Shown piece after piece: positions 24,838 to 33,143 of a DNA stretch of 64,000 nucleotides; positions within the stretch are counted from its first letter, which is position 1, and each line of letters starts with the position of its first letter. A program made the position numbers and the translations under genes. The notes below the pieces were generated by a model, which ran no database searches, had not been told where the DNA came from, and was given only the letters and a program-made list of their open reading frames with translations. The stretch comes from Salinibacterium sp. SWN248 (GTDB lineage Bacteria > Actinomycetota > Actinomycetes > Actinomycetales > Microbacteriaceae), in the NCBI RefSeq assembly GCF_015864575.1, contig NZ_JADYWW010000001.1:1573719-1637718 (forward strand), written 5' to 3'.

Positions 24838-25203
24838 TCTAGTAGCGCCGGTGAGCGCGCTCTGGATCGAATGGGCCGGTGAGCGTGCAGGCGCTCCGCG
24901 CTCGGCGTGACGCGTCCCCGGCGCACTGCGCTGTCACCGTGTCGACAGCCGCAGCAATCCGCTTGGGCCCGCTCGCAATCGGAGAGGTCACGATGGCGGG
25001 CGGCGGCGACCCTTTATCGATGCTGAACGTACGCCCCGCTACATGGGGTACTGATGCGCACGCTCTGCGCGCTGACCTCATCGTGGGGGGAGGCGCGTTG
25101 TTCACTCTCGTGGATCGGTCTATCCCTCATATTTGTTGCACTATCTGTTCTGAGTACGGCTCGGCATACCCGCAAAACATTGGTATCGCCTTAGGATTTG
25201 TGC
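24838..25203. other. 366-nt intergenic region without a convincing gene
   Basis: Contains two copies of GCCGGTGAGCG (24847-24857 and 24875-24885), and a hairpin GAGCG/CGCTC (24881-24896) that may end the decarboxylase transcript. Short frames on both strands (24879-25226 plus, 24839-25105 minus) have no recognisable family. The last bases carry TTAGGA, the likely ribosome site of the next gene. The promoter of that large gene should be here. Confidence 0.6.
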
Positions 25204-28200
25204 ATGGCATTCCACGACGACGTTGACGACGCGAACGATGCGAACGACAAAACGTCTTCAGAGCATGAGTTCGAACTACCCTTTCCGAAGCCCGCAACCG
25301 GCACATCTCCCGGTGCGGACTCGGCGAATGACACGACCGCTGACGGTCTTGTCGACCTGAGCGAAGCATCCACTGACGGCATTTTCAATCTGGATGCTGC
25401 GCTCAATGCAGACACGTCCGTGCCGGTTGCGCCGCCCGCAGACTCTGTCGCACCGCCGGCGCCGCCCGTTGGCGCCTCAGGATTTGCGCCCATCGACCTC
25501 AACGAAGAGTTCCAGCGCTCTGACGTCGCAGATGCGCTCGACCAGGGAATGCCTCCTTGGGCCATGGCGCCCGCTCCTGATCCCACCCAGGCTGTTTCGC
25601 AGCTCGATGCTCCGAGTGATGCAGATTCCGAGCACGCCGCCGCACCGTCGGCAGCCGATGACAACGATGACGACGACCCCTACCAAATTCCTGCTGATTA
25701 CACGACGCCAGATTTCTTCGCGTCCCGTATTTCTCGCCGACGCACTCCAGAAGAAATGGAAGCCCACGCTGCGGCAGTAGACGCTGAAAGCGACGCATTG
25801 GCTACTGCTCTTGCCGCTGGCGAGGCGGCAGCTGCCGGTGAGAGCGCAACTGCTCCGACTGAGCCTGCGCCGGTCGAATCCGCAGCCGCTCAATCAGCAG
25901 CCGCTCAGTCCGCACCGGATGATTCCGCAGCAACCGAATCTGCCCCCGTTGAATCTGCGCCGCTCGATGCTGCGCCGCTCGATGCTGCGCCGCTCGATGC
26001 TGCGCCGCTCGATGCTGCGCCAGTCGCACCTGAGCCGCTCGCGTCAGAATCGGTCGAGCCAGCCCCCGTTTCTGCTGACGCCATTGCGCCTGCCGCGGAC
26101 GAGTTCGACGAAGATCTTGGTGCGTTCGATCTTGGCGCTACCGAGGGCGCAGATGACTCCGAAGAGTTCAGCTTCGAATCGCTCTTTGCAACGCAGGAAC
26201 CAGAAGCAGCTGCGCCTCACGCGCCCGCTGAAGACGCACCGTCCGGTGACACACACTGGGCAGAAGTTTCTCCTGTCGCGGGCGACAGCTCCGATTCAAT
26301 TTCAGCCGAATCGGATGCGCCCGCTAACCACATCTGGAAGCTCGGGCCGCTTGAGCCCAACGTTCAGGGCTCCACTCCCGCACCGGCTCCCGTAGAGGAG
26401 CAGGCTGCGGCAGAGGCGCCTCTTCCTGTGGAAGAAGTCATCGACGGTGCCCCCATGTGGAATCTCGACGGCAAGGATGCTCCGCCCGTTGTCGACGCAC
26501 CTAGCCTGAATAGCGACGGTTTCCTTTCGCTCGATGAGGTTCTCGCTCCCGACCCCGACGTTTCGGATACCACGAGCGAGGCTTCTGTGCCCGCAGCTGA
26601 AGAGGTCGCGCCGCAGGAAGACGCGACGGACTCAACTCTTGCCGATGCCGATTCGAGCTCACCTGCTGATGACGACGCTGAAGCAAGCGAACTCGCCAGC
26701 GCCCCGTCCGCAGCGAGCGTTTCGGCTTTCGACCTGGATGCTGCGTTCCGCGAAGCCGCCGTTCCTGAGCCCTCTGCTGAGAACTCCACGAGCGAATACC
26801 TCGCACCGCCCACGCCTGAGTCCGCGATCGAGCCTGAGTATGTTGCGGCGCCAGCGGTTCCGGCAGATTCAGCGGCCGCAGACGAACCAGCGTCGACGAC
26901 GGAGCCCGAGACGATCGAGGCCGTTGAAGACGTGACCGAAGCGGTTGCCGAAGAGCCTCTCGACGTGTTCTTCCCCGCCCCGGCCGCAGAGACTGCTCTC
27001 GACGAACCAGCGGAAGTTGGCGCGGTTGAGTCCGCAGTCGCCGAAGCGGACGACACTGTGGAATCCAGCGGCATCGCAGAACCTAGTGAAGTCTCAGAAG
27101 TCACTGACGCGGCCGAAGCAGATTCACCCTTCGCGCGCCGTCAGTCGTTCATCGCACCGTCTGATGAGGAGCCGGCAGCGAATGCTGCGGACGCCGTCGA
27201 AACTTTCGAGAGTGTGGCACCCACGACTGAATCAGCAGCTCCCGTCGCAGAAATTCCTGATGTCGTTGCTCCCGTAAATTTCGCTGCTGATGCTGTCGAA
27301 CCGGCGTTCGTTTCAGAACCGGAAACAGAAGCGGAACCAGAAGCCCAAGCAGAAACCGAAGCAGCGCCTGAGGCAGCCAGTGCTCCTGAGACTGAGATTG
27401 CTTTTGAGGCTGTGACGCTTCCTGAGGCCCCGATCGCCCCGGAGGCAGCTGGCGTTGTCGCTCCCGCGTTTGAGCTCCCGGCCGAGCCCTTCGTCGAGTC
27501 TGTCGAACCTGCCGAACTTGGCGAACCCGTCCAGTCGAACCCAGTGCAGACCGCGCCGTTCGTTTCGAGTTTTGCACCGGAAGCATCCTTCATCCCGGTC
27601 GCGGAGCCAACTCCCGCAGCAGAAGAAAATCCAGCAGCCCCAAACACTCCCGTTGCGGACGAGTCGGCGACTGCGGAAGCACCGGCAGCGAGCGAAGAAC
27701 AGCCTGCAAGTGCAGAAACTGCGACAGCTAACGACGTCCCGACGCCTCCCACCCGCCGTTCGATGGCGGATGAAGATATTCTGAACTGGGCAGACAGCCC
27801 CGAAAACCAGTCAACGGGAACGCTGAGCGTCATTGAGGTTCTCGAAGCTCAGTTGCGATTGCGCGAAGAAGAAGCCCGTGAGTACCGCGAATGGGAAACT
27901 ACATTCCGGTCCCGAGGCGGCCCCGTCGCCGATCAGGTCATCGAGCAAGTTCGGTCCGAATTCTCGGATGTCGTCGACCAGGATGAAGCGCCCTCTGCGG
28001 CTGCGGAGACTCACACGCCAGTCGAGCCCCAGGCAGAGACCGCGGACGTCGACATTGATCAGGCTGCTTCTCACTCCGCTGGAACCGCCAGCGAGACAGC
28101 GGATGCGCCTCCAGTCGTGCCGGAAGAATCGTCCGCCACAGCTGCACCCGCGCCAGCACCTGCTGCGGCCCAATTGCCGTCGTGGGACGTTCCGCCGCCC

Positions 28201-31140
28201 AGCGAGTCGTGGTCGCCTCCCGCGGACTTCGAAGACGAGATCCCCTTTGCTGCTCACGCAGATCCGACCGGGTCGATCACACTTCCTGTTCTAGGCGACG
28301 ACTCTGAGCAGCCGTCTAATGAGCAGCCGTCTGTCGAGCAGCCTGCTGCTCCGGCAGCGGCTACCGAGCCCATTGCCGACCCCGCAGCTTCTTCGTTCGA
28401 TGCCGAGTCCGGCTTTCTTTCCTTGGGCGATGCTCCGGAAGCTCCCGCGGCCGAAACGCCTGATGCTGCCATCATTCCTGAAGCACCGGTAGTTTCCGAA
28501 TCGTTCGCTGCGCCCGAGTTGCCTTTCGCCACACTGCCAGCAGCTGCGCCCGAGGCGCCCGCCGCGCCCGAAGCGACTGACGAGACCGCAGCTCCGGCCC
28601 CCTCTGACGTTCAGGCTGCTCCTGAATTCCCCGCCGACGAGGATGGCGACTACGACGAGGTCGAATTCGCTCCGCCTGCTCTCGTGGAGCCGGACGTCGC
28701 GCCGAGCATTCCGCGCGCGAACCTCGACGAGCATGTCTCGTTCGGTGATTTCGGATTTGCTCCGCCGCCCGCAGACGGCGCATCGGACGAGGTCAACGCT
28801 GAGGCGGCCTCCGCTGAATTCGCTGTCGACTCGGCCGCTGATGAAAGCGACGCACCCTTCGCGTTCGATCTCCAAGCGGACCTGCCGAGCACCGCAGCAT
28901 CGACGCCTGCTGAGGCGCCGATTGAAACCGAGCAGGACTCCGCAGAAACGACTGCTGTGGCCTCCGAGCCGGTGTCGGAATCTGTTCCCGACGATTCTGC
29001 AGCAGCGACCGCCACAACGGAGGGTGCTGCAGCTTTCAGCTTCGCCTCGACCGAGACTCCGAAGTACGTCGCATCGGAACCGATCAGCTTTGATGACCTG
29101 CTGAAGACCGATGACATCGTGGATGCTGACGTCGATTCCGACGCCGATGAAGCGGATGTTGATCCATTGCAGGCGCTCCTCGCGAACGCCGCACCGCCTC
29201 TCCATGGTGACCCGCTCTCTGAAGTTCAAACTGGCTCGATGCCCATTGCCCAAGCCGCATTTGAAGCGGACGAGTCTGAAACGGATGACGCTGTTGACGA
29301 CAGCGACCGCCTTTCGTACCCGACAGAGCTGTCCACCGCCGCATTCAGCGCCGGAGTGAGCGCTGCGCCAATCGACAACGCTGCGCCAATCGACAACGCT
29401 GGCGCCGAGAACGTTCACGCTGATAACGCCGACGACGAAATTCCCTTTGCCGCCGGGGCGGCAGGTGCTGCGCTTCTTGGTGGCGCTGCCGTTGCTGGTG
29501 CTTCGCTTGCGTCGCAGCCGGCACCAACGGGCGCTCCGGCACCTCTCGCTGCACCACCAATCACTGAATCAAGCGCGGCTGCGCCAGCGCCAATAGATTC
29601 AATGCCTCAGCCAGTTGCTCATTCAACGTCGGTAGTTGCTCAGCAGCCGCTCGGTCTTGATGAGGTCGCTCCTACGGCGCAGCGCGTCTTCAGCCTTGAG
29701 GAGAGTGGCCTGGAGCCGACTCCGGTTGATCGCCGCATCGGTCACGCCGCACGTCTCTTCTGGCTGTGGTTTGCTGCCAACTCGTCCATCGTGAGCCTCG
29801 GTCTCGGTGCAGCGGTGTTCGCTGTGGGGATGAGCCTTCGCCAGTCGATCGTCGCTATCCTCGCGGGTGTCGCGCTGTCCTTCATTCCCTTGGGCCTCAC
29901 GACTCTTGCGGGCAAGCGCAGTGGCCAGCCAACCATGGTTGTCTCGCGGTCGACGTTCGGGCTCCTCGGCAATATCGCTCCGTCGGTGGTTGCCTTAGTG
30001 GCACGACTCTTCTGGGGCGCTGTGCTCTTGTGGGTCTTGGCTTCTTCGGTCGCCATTGTGCTGATCGGCTCCGACCTCAACGGTGGTCTTGGTGACCGAC
30101 AGTTGCTTCTCATCGCATTGGCGCTGTCGTTCCTGATCGCGCTGGTAATCGCTTTCGCCGGTTACCCGCTGTTTGCGCGCATCCAATTGATTCTGAGCAT
30201 CATCTCGGGTGTGCTGATTGTGGGCCTCATCGGCTTCACGGCGCAGTACATCGACGTTTCGCAGGCGCTCACCACTCCCGACGGTTCGTGGCTGCTGACA
30301 GTCACCGGCGCCGTCTTGGTGTTCAGCTTCCTTGGTTTGGTGTGGGCCTATAGCGGTGCAGATATTGCCCGTTACCAGCGCCCGTCCTCGAGCGGTCCAG
30401 CGTCGATGTTGTCTGCCACCTTTGGTGCAGCACTTCCCGCCTTCGTTCTCATCGCCTACGGTGCGCTTCTTGCGGCTTCAGACCCTGCAATTGCTCGCGG
30501 CTTCCTCGCTTCGCCACTCGACACCCTGCTGCTCTTGCTGCCGAGCTGGTACCCGATTCCGTTGCTGCTTGCTGCTGCACTGAGCTTGCTCTCGGGCATC
30601 ACGTTGAGCCTCTACTCCGGTGGTTTCGCCCTCCAGGCAATTGGAGTGCGGGTGCCGCGTCAGTGGTCAATCGTCATCGTTGCGGTCGTGCTCGGTGCTC
30701 TCGGCATCCTCTTCGCCTTCGGCATCGATGGTGGAATCAACGAACTGTTCCGGGATGTCGCAACCACGCTTGCGGTTCCCACCGCTGCGTGGGCGGGCAT
30801 CTTTGCTTCGGAGACGATGATTCGCACTCGCAAGCTCGACAGCGCTGGGCTGCTTGCTCGCGGTGGAGTGTATGCCGATGTCCGCTGGGTCAACCTCGGT
30901 GCCTACATCGTGATCTCGGTGATCGGCTTCGCTCTCACGAGCGCAACGATCAGCTGGCTTTCGTGGCAGGGGTACGGCTTTACGGCACTCGGCATTGATC
31001 TGAGTTCTGACCTCGCCGGCACCGACCTTGGTGTGCTCGTCGCGCTTGGCCTCGGAATCCTGACGCCCCTGGTGGCAGGTATTCCAGCGATTCGTCGTCA
31101 AGAGGCCGAGCAGCCTGAGCGCGCACCGCGTCCCGCCTAG
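25204..31140 (+). CDS. NCS1-type permease fused to a ~1,500-residue acidic disordered N-terminal region
   Basis: A 1978-residue protein. The C-terminal ~480 residues (from about 1497) are a purine/cytosine-type (NCS1) transporter: ESGLEPTPVDRRIGHAARLF followed by WLWFAANSSIVSLGLG is the NCS1 entry motif, and about 11-12 hydrophobic segments follow. Everything before it is Ala/Pro/Glu/Asp/Ser-rich, acidic and low in complexity. Exceptions are a helical, coiled-coil-like island at about 854-925 (LSVIEVLEAQLRLREEEARE) and many short aromatic-acidic motifs (FNLDAAL 61-67, IDLNEEF 97-103, FDLDAAF 509-515, EIPFAA at 1012-1017 and 1412-1417). No stop or frameshift interrupts the frame. ATG at 25204 with TTAGGA 5 nt upstream; a TTG at 25198 is less likely. 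NCS1 proteins are normally 400-550 residues. The substrate is unknown and the tail's role is not established. Confidence 0.85.
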   Translation: MAFHDDVDDANDANDKTSSEHEFELPFPKPATGTSPGADSANDTTADGLVDLSEASTDGIFNLDAALNADTSVPVAPPADSVAPPAPPVGASGFAPIDLNEEFQRSDVADALDQGMPPWAMAPAPDPTQAVSQLDAPSDADSEHAAAPSAADDNDDDDPYQIPADYTTPDFFASRISRRRTPEEMEAHAAAVDAESDALATALAAGEAAAAGESATAPTEPAPVESAAAQSAAAQSAPDDSAATESAPVESAPLDAAPLDAAPLDAAPLDAAPVAPEPLASESVEPAPVSADAIAPAADEFDEDLGAFDLGATEGADDSEEFSFESLFATQEPEAAAPHAPAEDAPSGDTHWAEVSPVAGDSSDSISAESDAPANHIWKLGPLEPNVQGSTPAPAPVEEQAAAEAPLPVEEVIDGAPMWNLDGKDAPPVVDAPSLNSDGFLSLDEVLAPDPDVSDTTSEASVPAAEEVAPQEDATDSTLADADSSSPADDDAEASELASAPSAASVSAFDLDAAFREAAVPEPSAENSTSEYLAPPTPESAIEPEYVAAPAVPADSAAADEPASTTEPETIEAVEDVTEAVAEEPLDVFFPAPAAETALDEPAEVGAVESAVAEADDTVESSGIAEPSEVSEVTDAAEADSPFARRQSFIAPSDEEPAANAADAVETFESVAPTTESAAPVAEIPDVVAPVNFAADAVEPAFVSEPETEAEPEAQAETEAAPEAASAPETEIAFEAVTLPEAPIAPEAAGVVAPAFELPAEPFVESVEPAELGEPVQSNPVQTAPFVSSFAPEASFIPVAEPTPAAEENPAAPNTPVADESATAEAPAASEEQPASAETATANDVPTPPTRRSMADEDILNWADSPENQSTGTLSVIEVLEAQLRLREEEAREYREWETTFRSRGGPVADQVIEQVRSEFSDVVDQDEAPSAAAETHTPVEPQAETADVDIDQAASHSAGTASETADAPPVVPEESSATAAPAPAPAAAQLPSWDVPPPSESWSPPADFEDEIPFAAHADPTGSITLPVLGDDSEQPSNEQPSVEQPAAPAAATEPIADPAASSFDAESGFLSLGDAPEAPAAETPDAAIIPEAPVVSESFAAPELPFATLPAAAPEAPAAPEATDETAAPAPSDVQAAPEFPADEDGDYDEVEFAPPALVEPDVAPSIPRANLDEHVSFGDFGFAPPPADGASDEVNAEAASAEFAVDSAADESDAPFAFDLQADLPSTAASTPAEAPIETEQDSAETTAVASEPVSESVPDDSAAATATTEGAAAFSFASTETPKYVASEPISFDDLLKTDDIVDADVDSDADEADVDPLQALLANAAPPLHGDPLSEVQTGSMPIAQAAFEADESETDDAVDDSDRLSYPTELSTAAFSAGVSAAPIDNAAPIDNAGAENVHADNADDEIPFAAGAAGAALLGGAAVAGASLASQPAPTGAPAPLAAPPITESSAAAPAPIDSMPQPVAHSTSVVAQQPLGLDEVAPTAQRVFSLEESGLEPTPVDRRIGHAARLFWLWFAANSSIVSLGLGAAVFAVGMSLRQSIVAILAGVALSFIPLGLTTLAGKRSGQPTMVVSRSTFGLLGNIAPSVVALVARLFWGAVLLWVLASSVAIVLIGSDLNGGLGDRQLLLIALALSFLIALVIAFAGYPLFARIQLILSIISGVLIVGLIGFTAQYIDVSQALTTPDGSWLLTVTGAVLVFSFLGLVWAYSGADIARYQRPSSSGPASMLSATFGAALPAFVLIAYGALLAASDPAIARGFLASPLDTLLLLLPSWYPIPLLLAAALSLLSGITLSLYSGGFALQAIGVRVPRQWSIVIVAVVLGALGILFAFGIDGGINELFRDVATTLAVPTAAWAGIFASETMIRTRKLDSAGLLARGGVYADVRWVNLGAYIVISVIGFALTSATISWLSWQGYGFTALGIDLSSDLAGTDLGVLVALGLGILTPLVAGIPAIRRQEAEQPERAPRPA
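25957..26016 (+). repeat. Four perfect 15-bp tandem repeats inside the permease gene
   Basis: GCGCCGCTCGATGCT occurs four times without change (25957-25971, 25972-25986, 25987-26001, 26002-26016), encoding repeated APLDA. In-frame units of five codons mean copy-number change would alter tail length without breaking the gene. Confidence 0.95.
29361..29396 (+). repeat. Duplicated 18-bp unit inside the permease gene
   Basis: CGCTGCGCCAATCGACAA occurs at 29361-29378 and again, unchanged, at 29379-29396, encoding two copies of AAPIDN near the end of the disordered region. Confidence 0.95.
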
Positions 31141-31149
31141 ACTGATCGC

Positions 31150-31968
31150 GTGTCTACTACTGTCGCTCATGTCCTTGCCGCGGCCGAACGGCTCTGGCCT
31201 GCATCCGGTGCCGAGTCGTGGGATGCGGTGGGGTTAGTCGCGGGAGACCTCGACGCCCCGGTGTCTACGATCTCTTTCGCGGTCGACGCGGTCATCGACA
31301 CCGTCGACGAGGCTATTGCTGGTGGTGCGGACATGCTCATTACGCACCATCCGTTGCTCCTGCGCGGGGTCACATCCATAGCGAGCGACCGCTACAAAGG
31401 AGCGGTGCTCACCAAGCTTGTGCGTGCTGAGTGCGCTCTGTTGGCCGCACACACGAACGCGGATGTCGTAGAAACCGGAACGTCAGGTCGCTTCGCCTCC
31501 AAGCTGGGCTTGTCGTCGATCGCCCCCATCGTCGCCGGTCAGACTCCCGATCGCGGCATTGGCCGCACGGGGCAACTGCCGGAGCCGATGACCCTCGGTC
31601 GTCTCGCTCGCCTGATCGCGGAGATTCTCCCGCCCACGGCTACCGGCGTTCGTGTTGCTGGTGATTTTGAGCAACTCGTTCAATCGGTGGCGTTGTGTGG
31701 GGGAGCGGGTGACGCATACTTGAACGAGCCTGCCGTGTTGGCGTCGGATGTCTACATCACGAGTGATCTGCGGCATCATCCGGCTTCTGAAGCTCGTGAG
31801 AATGCTCGGCTCCTGAATGGCCCGGCGTTGATCGATGTCTCGCATTGGGCGAGTGAATGGTTGTGGCTCGACGCTGCAGCCGAAGAGTTGCGGGCATTGC
31901 TGCCAGACGTAACGATTACGGTGAGCGAATTGCGCACCGATCCTTGGGATTTTGCGGTTGTGCAGTAA
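31150..31968 (+). CDS. Nif3-like dinuclear metal centre protein
   Basis: A 272-residue member of the NIF3/YqfO family, hexameric proteins with two metal ions per subunit (GTP cyclohydrolase I type 2/NIF3). Metal-binding residues are visible in ITHHPLLL (about residue 60), AHTNAD (about 102) and the C-terminal SHWASEW. SWDAVGLVAGD is the usual start. GTG start 9 nt after the permease gene's stop codon, so it may be co-transcribed with it. The biochemical role of the family remains unclear. Confidence 0.9.
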   Translation: MSTTVAHVLAAAERLWPASGAESWDAVGLVAGDLDAPVSTISFAVDAVIDTVDEAIAGGADMLITHHPLLLRGVTSIASDRYKGAVLTKLVRAECALLAAHTNADVVETGTSGRFASKLGLSSIAPIVAGQTPDRGIGRTGQLPEPMTLGRLARLIAEILPPTATGVRVAGDFEQLVQSVALCGGAGDAYLNEPAVLASDVYITSDLRHHPASEARENARLLNGPALIDVSHWASEWLWLDAAAEELRALLPDVTITVSELRTDPWDFAVVQ

Positions 31969-31992: not shown

Positions 31993-32739
31993 ATGACTAT
32001 GGCATTGACCGCTAGCCCCGCTGATCAGGCGCTGCTCCTCGACCTGCAGGCCTTTGACACGAAGATTGCCCAGTTGGAGCACCGTGCCAAGAAGCTTCCT
32101 GAGCACGAGAAACTTACCGAACTGAAGCAGCACCGCGACAAGCTTCAGTTGACGATGCTGGAAGAGCGTGGCATCAAAGAAGACATCGAGCTCGAAATGA
32201 GCCGCGTTGAGTCGGATGTCACGGTGGTTGAGGCTCGCATCGCCCGTGATACTTCGCGCCTTGATGCGAGTTCGTCGGCGAAAGATGTTGCTGCGCTTGA
32301 GCAGGAGCTCGCCGCGCTGCGCACCCGTTTGAGCAACCTCGAAGACATTGAGCTAGCCGTCATGGAGAAGCTTGAAACCCAGCAGAAGGTTGTCGACAAT
32401 CTCGCTGAACAGGCGGACAACCTCCGTACCCAGGCCGCCGAGCTCGAAGGCAGCCGCGATGAAGCCCTCGTCGTCATTGAGACGGAGTTGGGCACGACCC
32501 GTACCGGTCGCTCTGCTTTGCAAGCTACGATCCCGGACGATCTTTTGGCGCTCTACGAACGTCAGCGCGAACGTTACGGTGTTGGCGCTTCGCTGTTGCG
32601 CGGGGGAGTTTCGCTGGCATCCGGCGTGAAGCTCCTCGAGAACGAAATGCAAGAGATTCGGGCCGCAGCACCTGACACCGTGATCATGTGTGCCAGTAGT
32701 GAAGGCATTCTTGTTCGCACCAACGAGTCGGGACTCTAA
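31993..32739 (+). CDS. Coiled-coil protein of the C4-type zinc-ribbon family, cysteines lost
   Basis: A 248-residue protein, nearly all helical coiled coil up to about residue 185 (LLDLQAFDTKIAQLEHRAKKL at the start), then a short C-terminal region. In relatives such as mycobacterial Rv2229c the C-terminal region is a zinc ribbon with two CxxC pairs. Here only one cysteine remains (VIMCASSEG); the first pair is replaced by GVSLASG. So the fold outline is kept but the zinc site is not. It follows nif3 by 24 nt and precedes rnpB, the usual order. ATG at 31993; a second ATG lies two codons on. Confidence 0.85.
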   Translation: MTMALTASPADQALLLDLQAFDTKIAQLEHRAKKLPEHEKLTELKQHRDKLQLTMLEERGIKEDIELEMSRVESDVTVVEARIARDTSRLDASSSAKDVAALEQELAALRTRLSNLEDIELAVMEKLETQQKVVDNLAEQADNLRTQAAELEGSRDEALVVIETELGTTRTGRSALQATIPDDLLALYERQRERYGVGASLLRGGVSLASGVKLLENEMQEIRAAAPDTVIMCASSEGILVRTNESGL

Positions 32740-32768: not shown

Positions 32769-33143
32769 GAATGGGTCGGCAAGACGGTCGCGTTATCCGC
32801 AAGGGTACCGAGGAACGTCCGGGCTCCGCAGAGCAGGATGGTGGGTAACACCCACCCGGGGCAACCCGCGAGAACAGTGCAACAGAAAGCAGACCGCCAC
32901 AGACTTCGGTCTGGGGTAAGGGTGAAACGGTGGTGTAAGAGACCACCAGCGGCCGCGGTGACTCGGCCGGCTAGGTAAACCTCGTCCGGAGCAAGATCAG
33001 ACAGAAGACGCTAAGGCTGCTCGCCAAGTCTTCGGGTAGATCGCTAGAGGTGTGCGGCAACGTACATCGTAGATAGATGACCGTCCAGCACGAGATTTCG
33101 GTCTCGTGTGAACAGAACCCGGCGTACTAGCCGGCCCATTCCT
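32769..33143 (+). ncRNA. rnpB: RNase P RNA, bacterial class A
   Basis: All hallmark segments of the tRNA-processing ribozyme are present in order: GAGGAACGTCCGGGCTCC (CR-I), the GGGTGAAACGGTGGTGTAAG block, CCACCAGC, AGATAGATGACCGTCC (CR-V side) and ACAGAACCCGGCGTA. The 5' GAATGGGTCGGC pairs with the 3' GCCGGCCCATTC to close P1, which sets the ends to within a few bases. Short open frames over this region are not genes. Confidence 0.96.

Follow-up and report, generated by a model that had tools for sequence, protein, structure and literature searches.

An acidic, island-bearing extension on a divergent NCS1-type permease of the Microbacteriaceae: a putative membrane-tethered recruiting arm

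Introduction

RNase E-type membrane scaffolds have a long disordered arm with short partner-binding motifs and are held at the membrane by an anchor that differs between lineages. In the NCS1 carrier Mhp1, Trp117, Gln121, Trp220 and Asn318 are presumably the pocket residues. Cytosolic tails of fungal NCS1 carriers alter specificity and turnover, according to the passages on tails in PMC6597760; for the Fur group an N-tail of 38 residues and other motifs are mentioned there, and an N-tail motif of NCS1 carriers, N-X-D/S-hydrophobic-X-P, is placed about ten residues before TM1. The same passages describe the tails of prokaryotic transporters as generally shorter than those of eukaryotic ones and as nearly absent in some families (PMC6597760).

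A widespread pairing of DUF34/NIF3 and COG1579 has already been described (PMC8469502, PMC3372290), and the passages on this pairing in the two papers make no mention of an extended permease-like third neighbour. A literature search over titles and abstract openings found, among the matches listed, no paper concerning an extended permease-like protein of the kind described here. The gene for this protein lies next to nif3 in the window, the whole stretch of 64,000 nucleotides from Salinibacterium sp. SWN248 that was analysed.

Results

Gene and distribution

The features of the locus are collected in Table 1. On the + strand a single frame is open from 25198 (TTG) or 25204 (ATG) to the stop at 31140, and the ATG form comprises 1,978 residues. 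The first 1,494 residues are rich in A (22.8 %), P (12.6 %), E (11.2 %), D (9.9 %) and S (9.4 %) and carry a net charge of −290. From this composition the extension is predicted to be disordered, and it would lie on the cytosolic side of the membrane.

Table 1. Features of the extended permease-like gene and its neighbours (positions in the window)
Feature	Position	Strand	Basis
-10-like box TAGGAT	25192..25197	+	6 nt before ATG 25204; TAnnnT conserved in orthologues
Whole gene: acidic island-bearing extension and NCS1-type membrane domain	25204..31140	+	1,978 aa, open frame
Acidic A/P/E/D/S-rich extension, residues 1-1494	25204..29685	+	composition, charge, no Pfam match
N-terminal conserved block MAFHDDVDDANDANDKTSSEHEFELPFP	25204..25287	+	mean identity 0.92 over 8 genus members
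Conserved blocks APIDLNEEFQRSDVADALDQGMPPWAMAPAPDPTQ...	25486..25617	+	conservation across genus members
Conserved block DDDDPYQIPADYTTPDFFASRISRRRTP	25666..25749	+	conservation across genus members
Island B: PPTRRSMADEDIL...GTLSVIEVLEAQLRLREEEAREYREWETTF...	27712..27993	+	profile in 43/60 orthologues; kept in truncated relatives
Conserved blocks LPSWDVPPPSESWSPPADFEDEIPFAAHADPTGSITLPVL	28165..28293	+	conservation across genus members
Conserved blocks with PPxLVEP motif	28615..28773	+	LVEP in 31/56 extensions vs 3.0 in shuffles
FDDLL motif block	29074..29121	+	FDx[LIV][LIV] in 16/56 extensions vs 1.1 in shuffles
Acidic DDxVDDxDR-type block (window: DDAVDDSDR)	29278..29319	+	conservation; consensus A6
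Block just before membrane domain, into EESGLEPTPVDRRIGHAAR	29635..29697	+	FSLExSGxEPTP in consensus A6
NCS1-type membrane domain (PF02133)	29716..30945	+	Pfam; profile of 19 such domains matches Mhp1
nif3 (DUF34/NIF3)	31150..31968	+	PF01784, E 4.6e-64; 9 nt downstream of gene
CT398-like coiled-coil protein	31993..32739	+	PF24481, E 2.9e-44
RNase P RNA (rnpB)	32772..33142	+	RF00010, 303.7 bits

The membrane domain was matched at 40 % identity or more in 60 of 199 genomes of the family, and the genus search matched all 27 genomes (own genome included in both). The best frames in the genus were 967–2,188 residues long in 26 genomes, the one short frame (G454, 503 residues) coming from a fragmented assembly. 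Independently sequenced named assemblies also carry the gene, and named relatives with it include Salinibacterium, Glaciihabitans, Leifsonia, Galbitalea, Humibacter and Microcella. One locus (L149), in a record titled Acidobacteria bacterium (MAG G2_35), is a typical Microbacteriaceae version with unchanged neighbours and probably comes from a bin that was mislabelled or contaminated. Among the matches outside the family, the stronger ones (E < 1e-50) were about 31–37 % identical, many of them in frames of 490–560 residues. Several non-family NCS1 relatives at 33–35 % identity lie in frames of about 1,000–1,400 residues (up to 1,414; for example in G244, G248 and G338).

Sixty family loci were fetched: 53 from the 59 genomes that, besides the own one, reach 40 % identity (G022, G023, G044, G054, G183 and G189 were left out), six of lower identity, and L092, which is not an orthologue and was dropped from the counts, leaving 59. 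L053 was left out of set A1 and L291–L293 were left out of the analysis; L206 and L207 gave no match. All 59 fetched orthologues have a 5' extension in the same frame, and the length before the membrane part varies about tenfold, from about 110 to 1,700 residues. A sequence-only reading of the window had described a single gene joining a long acidic region and an NCS1-like body in one frame. This was confirmed by the frame open from 25204 to 31140 and its presence in 27 of 27 genus genomes; the tail-less homologues with an unconserved 5' frame that could have overturned the description were absent from the 59 fetched orthologues.

Coding evidence

In 200 random sequences that kept the position-specific composition of the extension, the longest open run was 453 of 1,494 codons, and it was 356 for plain shuffles. 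Codon usage in the extension correlated with that of the other genes of the window at 0.905 in the sense frame, compared with 0.68 and 0.72 in the other forward frames and 0.26 to 0.78 in the antisense frames. Against the two nearest relatives (L093 and L033; NG86), dN/dS was lowest in the membrane domain (0.01), followed by island B (0.10) and the extension (0.17–0.18); the value for the extension is rough, with 24–26 gap runs and dS above 1, and several of ten comparisons were saturated, often those with more distant relatives. The earlier suggestion that the extension is coding and under selection is upheld by the open-run control, the codon usage and, roughly, the dN/dS.

Opposite the extension, the minus strand has an antisense frame of 375 codons (28291–29418), which is likely a by-product of composition, its codon usage fitting worse than that of the sense frame. 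The roughly 350 bases that separate the start box from the decarboxylase gene (24840–25190) have no Rfam match and no listed ORF of 120 residues or more.

Translation start

A TAnnnT box ends 6–7 nt before the start codon in 51 of the 57 orthologues that begin with ATG (window included), compared with 241 of 10,428 ATGs at the same loci. Leaderless genes of Actinobacteria have such a box directly upstream of the start codon. The conserved box makes translation of the extension from a leaderless mRNA probable and places the start at its far N-terminal end. It emerged from the comparison of relatives; a sigma-70 scan detected no promoter there. Ribosome-binding-like 4-mers precede the first start in 8 of 60 orthologues, and 18 of 60 have one before some internal start close to the domain; for 5-mers the counts were one and five of 60. 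Ribosome-binding sites therefore do not favour the first start, but the -10 box does. The scarcity of such 4-mers at the first start fits a leaderless start but, taken alone, is no argument for one.

The 4-mer counts are also what could be brought forward for an artefact, in which a sequencing or frame error has fused two genes or the 5' part goes untranslated. Against this stand the occurrence of the gene in 27 of 27 genus genomes and in independent named assemblies, the 59 of 59 in-frame extensions and the -10 box at the far N-terminal ATG; this explanation was rejected, and its probability is considered negligible. An internal start making the permease alone was likewise rejected, as none was conserved in the 60 orthologues and the -10 box marks the first start. 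The earlier reading had itself named two separate genes or an internal start as grounds for abandoning it, and neither was found.

Membrane domain

The sole Pfam domain of the protein is PF02133 (Transp_cyt_pur), at residues 1507–1916 of the printed frame (E 4e-28, 98.8 bits against a cut-off of 23.5), with the match covering positions 1–415 of the 440 in the model. This score places the body in the NCS1 superfamily; TIGR00800, for NCS1 nucleobase:cation symporters, scored 60.5 bits, below its cut-off of 353.1. A profile of 19 such membrane domains matched Mhp1 (PDB 2jln, 4d1a) over profile positions 19–425 (E 4.7e-9). By this alignment Trp117 alone of the Mhp1 pocket positions is kept, whereas the orthologues have Leu at Gln121, Gly at Trp220 and mostly Ser, Thr or Ala at Asn318. 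The protein also differs from Mhp1 and other NCS1 carriers in bearing an extension three times the size of its body.

Unextended actinobacterial NCS1 paralogues (33–35 % identity, 15 examined) belong to the same family at the Pfam level, and some genomes carry both forms. Their frames are of 492–741 residues, 13 of 15 being under 540 (L199 gave no match in this comparison). All 15 have GWE in TM3, FWPW in TM1 and TGFGLGW in TM6. The TM3 Glu and the TM1 Pro, each present in 15 of 15 paralogues, occur in none of the 60 orthologues, which at the Glu position have Gly (40), Ala (11), Ser (6), Leu (2) or Val (1); the TM8 position is mostly Ser (24), Ala (15) or Thr (14). Three aromatic residues are kept, the TM3 Trp in 125, the TM6 Trp in 128 and the TM8 Tyr in 127 of 130 rows, these rows being drawn from two overlapping collections. 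Since residues fixed in the paralogues are lost while these three aromatics are kept, the body is, as judged by its sequence, a changed NCS1 domain and not a simply decayed one, and it is tightly constrained within the genus. Its role as an ordinary nucleobase carrier has presumably been lost. The N-tail motif N-X-D/S-hydrophobic-X-P was not seen in the window, where inspection by eye found EESGLEPTPVD at that place, with no Asn.

Such a body could be that of a working transporter of another solute whose long cytosolic arm regulates or senses, a transceptor in which substrate occupancy of the NCS1-type body is relayed to the arm or partners of the arm switch transport. A membrane domain with dN/dS of about 0.01 in the genus, a body of complete length in 60 orthologues and the retention, in 125 of 130 rows (of the two overlapping collections), of the Trp that aligns with Mhp1 Trp117 all speak for it, and tails of fungal NCS1 carriers change specificity and turnover, as described in the passages on tails of PMC6597760. 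The loss of the residues fixed in 15 unextended paralogues speaks against it, as do relatives that retain island B with a body of about four, two, one or no helices. This is the main rival to the reading preferred below, and it is regarded as unlikely, though well short of implausible.

Conserved islands in the extension

About 14 % of the window's extension falls in conserved blocks, and the linkers between these islands are very variable in length, which corrects the earlier picture of a plain tail. Profiles of island A (GPRRSTYTPP; RRSxYTPP), island B (about 85 residues) and island C (DDDELAxALxxE...IPII; DDELAxAL) matched 31, 43 and 45 of 60 extensions at a domain E ≤ 1e-3; the profiles were built on these same sequences, and 20 rounds of shuffled extensions gave no match to any of the three. 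The C match overlaps island B in at least five extensions (L043, L056, L063, L076 and L077), and island B also has a DDEL core.

When patterns with four fixed positions were enumerated without preset motifs in 56 of 61 extensions (L033, L034, L069, L073 and L092 were excluded because they were redundant or their start was doubtful), the same motifs ranked first, together with LVEP. FDxLL was tested by pattern expression, separately from the enumeration. As a DNA pattern, motif A had 13 matches in 25 genomes, all within the extended permease-like gene; the reversed control had three. The window's own subclade has no A or C matches and retains island B, the LVEP, FDDLL and DDxVDDxDR-type blocks and blocks of its own; in the window, the blocks marked by APIDLNEEFQRSDVADALDQGMPPWAMAPAPDPTQ may be the local counterpart of the DDELAxAL island.

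Island B is probably helical. It was rejected as a known domain: a Pfam search with 23 members gave no credible domain, the 14 families found each matching one member with a best E of 0.013. Elsewhere in the order (149 genomes, including the own genome and some of the family), five matches were obtained, the own one and four at E 0.0099–0.039 that were taken as chance. In the family, 63 of 199 genomes had a match at E ≤ 0.05, the weak matches above 1e-3 occurring also in other genes.

Much of this region could be a linker produced by largely neutral expansion of Ala/Pro/Glu codons between a few small motifs, with length and mass of no importance. The tenfold range of length among orthologues, the small share of the window's extension in conserved blocks and the short tandem units in the gene (12–18 nt and multiples) agree with such an origin. 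The dN/dS of 0.17–0.18 against the nearest relatives, rough as it is, and the recurrence in the genus of hydrophobic-acidic motifs outside island B, far above that in shuffles, disagree with it. As an account of the extension, neutral expansion is considered improbable; confined to the linkers alone, it is compatible with the recruiting arm proposed below.

Phase separation from aromatic patterning was rejected as a candidate. The coefficient of variation of aromatic spacing in the extension was 1.05 against a shuffled mean of 0.96, with 82 % of shuffles as low or lower. Aromatic residues are no more evenly spaced than in shuffles, this spacing being the sole feature tested, and the earlier proposal of a hydrogel or phase-separating domain gained no support from it.

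Genomic context

The gene is followed directly by nif3 on the same strand in 56 of 60 orthologues (window included) and at 13 of 13 further island-B loci. The CT398-like protein of the window is presumably of the DUF164/COG1579 type. In three orthologues (L073, L086 and L087, of genus g69) a CT398-type gene follows directly instead of nif3, and their genomes (G132, G068 and G185) have no nif3 match; in L065 neither gene follows. Because nif3 is gone in genus g69 and the CT398-type gene then comes directly after the permease, its product is the first candidate for a partner.

An exception to the tight order is L157, in one Leifsonia metagenome bin, where about 4.5 kb separates the gene from nif3. 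In the window's CT398-like protein there is one Cys near the C-terminus (IMCASSEGILV), and a complete C4 zinc ribbon seems absent; loss of zinc-ribbon cysteines in Actinobacteria is reported in the passages on this family in PMC3372290.

Relatives with a reduced permease

The slots surveyed comprised 42 loci at which the membrane-domain search had found no intact orthologue (L204, L205 and L238–L277), 40 survey genomes having been picked upstream of nif3, roughly one per genus and not all; L245 was cut by a contig end, and L274 turned out to be a 12-helix form. Since 30 of the 42 slots contained nothing recognisably related, the family can do without the gene.

Other loci keep island B in the slot upstream of nif3 with a truncated body. 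By helix prediction only about the last four helices are left in L204, L242, L260, L279 and L278 (the last two from the genus of L260); these forms match positions 328–476 of the NCS1 profile at E 4e-14 to 0.0099, L278 being the weakest (0.0099), and the L204 remnant was matched by hhalign at E 1.4e-9. L241, which belongs to the genus of L204 and L242, has two helices that give no match to NCS1 (E 1.3), and L205 ends in a single helix. Helices are absent from L280 and L281, and in L257, of their genus, hydropathy flags one Ala/Pro/Val-rich stretch only; the C-termini of these three are tryptophan- and arginine-rich, for example GWWSRFVARILQAFGRR. Island B was matched at E 9e-35 to 3e-16 in L204, L241, L242, L260, L257 and L278–L281, and at 2.6e-6 in L205. 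The start box precedes an ATG in these ten reduced-permease loci (L204, L205, L241, L242, L257, L260 and L278–L281).

Further helix-less candidates are weaker, with island-B E values of 0.003 (L252), 0.035 (L269), 0.65 (L264) and 0.09 (L270) and no match in L246; better scores were obtained only for island A in L252 (3e-5) and island C in L264 (1e-4). The start box is present in L252 and was not found before an ATG in L246, L264, L269 or L270. At the reduced-genome loci, Pfam recognised no permease in seven of nine (L282–L287 and L290), where island B was matched at E 4e-14 to 8e-8 and the family NCS1 profile found only a fragment, in L285 (E 1.1e-5). The permease is still recognised in L288, L289 and L089. 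L285 and L286 have almost no linker, and among the reduced-genome loci tested, L282–L286 show no start box at the N-terminus. The reduced genome G081 has two island-B genes (L282 and L283) on two contigs, each followed by a nif3-like gene, which may reflect a mixed bin or a duplication.

In a quick nif3 tree, L204, L241, L242, L260 and L257 cluster (SH-aLRT 95) and the other eroded forms lie elsewhere with weak support; parsimony gives five changes between full and eroded forms. The tree was made without the four nif3-less loci and one row of 200 residues or fewer, and L084 and L088, on long branches, were also omitted from the constraint tests. A tree forcing all 11 eroded rows into one clade scored above the free quick tree and was not rejected (p 0.67). 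These sequences show an erosion of the body, but not its repetition: as a single eroded clade is not rejected, repeated independent loss cannot be claimed.

Discussion

The product of this gene is here interpreted, with a slight lean in favour, as a membrane-tethered cytosolic recruiting arm for which a divergent permease is the anchor. The permease body, for which 12 helices are expected in NCS1, would hold the protein in the membrane, and the N-terminal region would form a flexible acidic chain that reaches into the cytosol and bears short docking motifs and a single, probably helical module of about 85 residues, island B. The motifs and island B would bind at least one partner and hold partners near the membrane. 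Length before the membrane part would be free to change, with selection keeping the islands.

What most forms share is the island motifs near the N-terminus, the start box and the locus; what varies is the length of the linker and the anchor. Island B survives at the same slot where the permease is truncated or absent, and the start box is kept in the reduced-permease loci. Since some relatives have a withered or missing permease and still retain patches of the arm, the conserved function of the protein seems to lie in the arm and not in transport. Against a purely passive anchor, no other part of the protein is conserved as strongly within Salinibacterium as the membrane domain (dN/dS about 0.01), which implies that in this genus the body does something beyond passive anchoring.

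A recruiting arm resembles the RNase E-type scaffolds in its conserved short motifs and in its attachment to the membrane, with disorder suggested by composition and a presumably cytosolic position; it differs from them in having no enzyme domain in Pfam and in using a permease body as its anchor. Compared with the fungal Fur-group carriers of PMC6597760, whose tails are described there as functional and cytosolic, it likewise joins an NCS1 body to a cytosolic part, here far exceeding the 38-residue N-tail mentioned for them. Among the roles that the sequence-only reading had offered, a tether or partner-recruiting scaffold is retained as the best one and the hydrogel or phase-separating domain is not. 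That reading was silent on the islands, the leaderless-type start, the adjacency to nif3, the lost paralogue-fixed residues and the relatives that keep islands although their permease is truncated or missing.

A broader evolutionary proposal is more tentative, and we rate it at somewhat less than an even chance: a nucleobase-type permease of the Microbacteriaceae would have lost its usual pocket and become a membrane mount for a cytosolic docking arm, with the mount wearing away in relatives. If this is true, a transporter has been converted to a scaffold in graded steps, from a complete body through the last four helices and one helix to an amphipathic-looking tail, at a locus tied to nif3, to the CT398-type coiled-coil gene and, in the window, to RNase P RNA. 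Many genera of one bacterial family, from soil and water, retain a protein that derives from a transporter and has a soluble arm able to persist where the transporter is lost. Should the arm recruit partners, it would offer a simple bacterial system for the evolution of motif-bearing disordered arms, with an about tenfold change in length around fixed islands, and for how carriers turn into anchors. It would also give a handle on the role of the widespread and poorly understood nif3/DUF164 pair in Actinobacteria.
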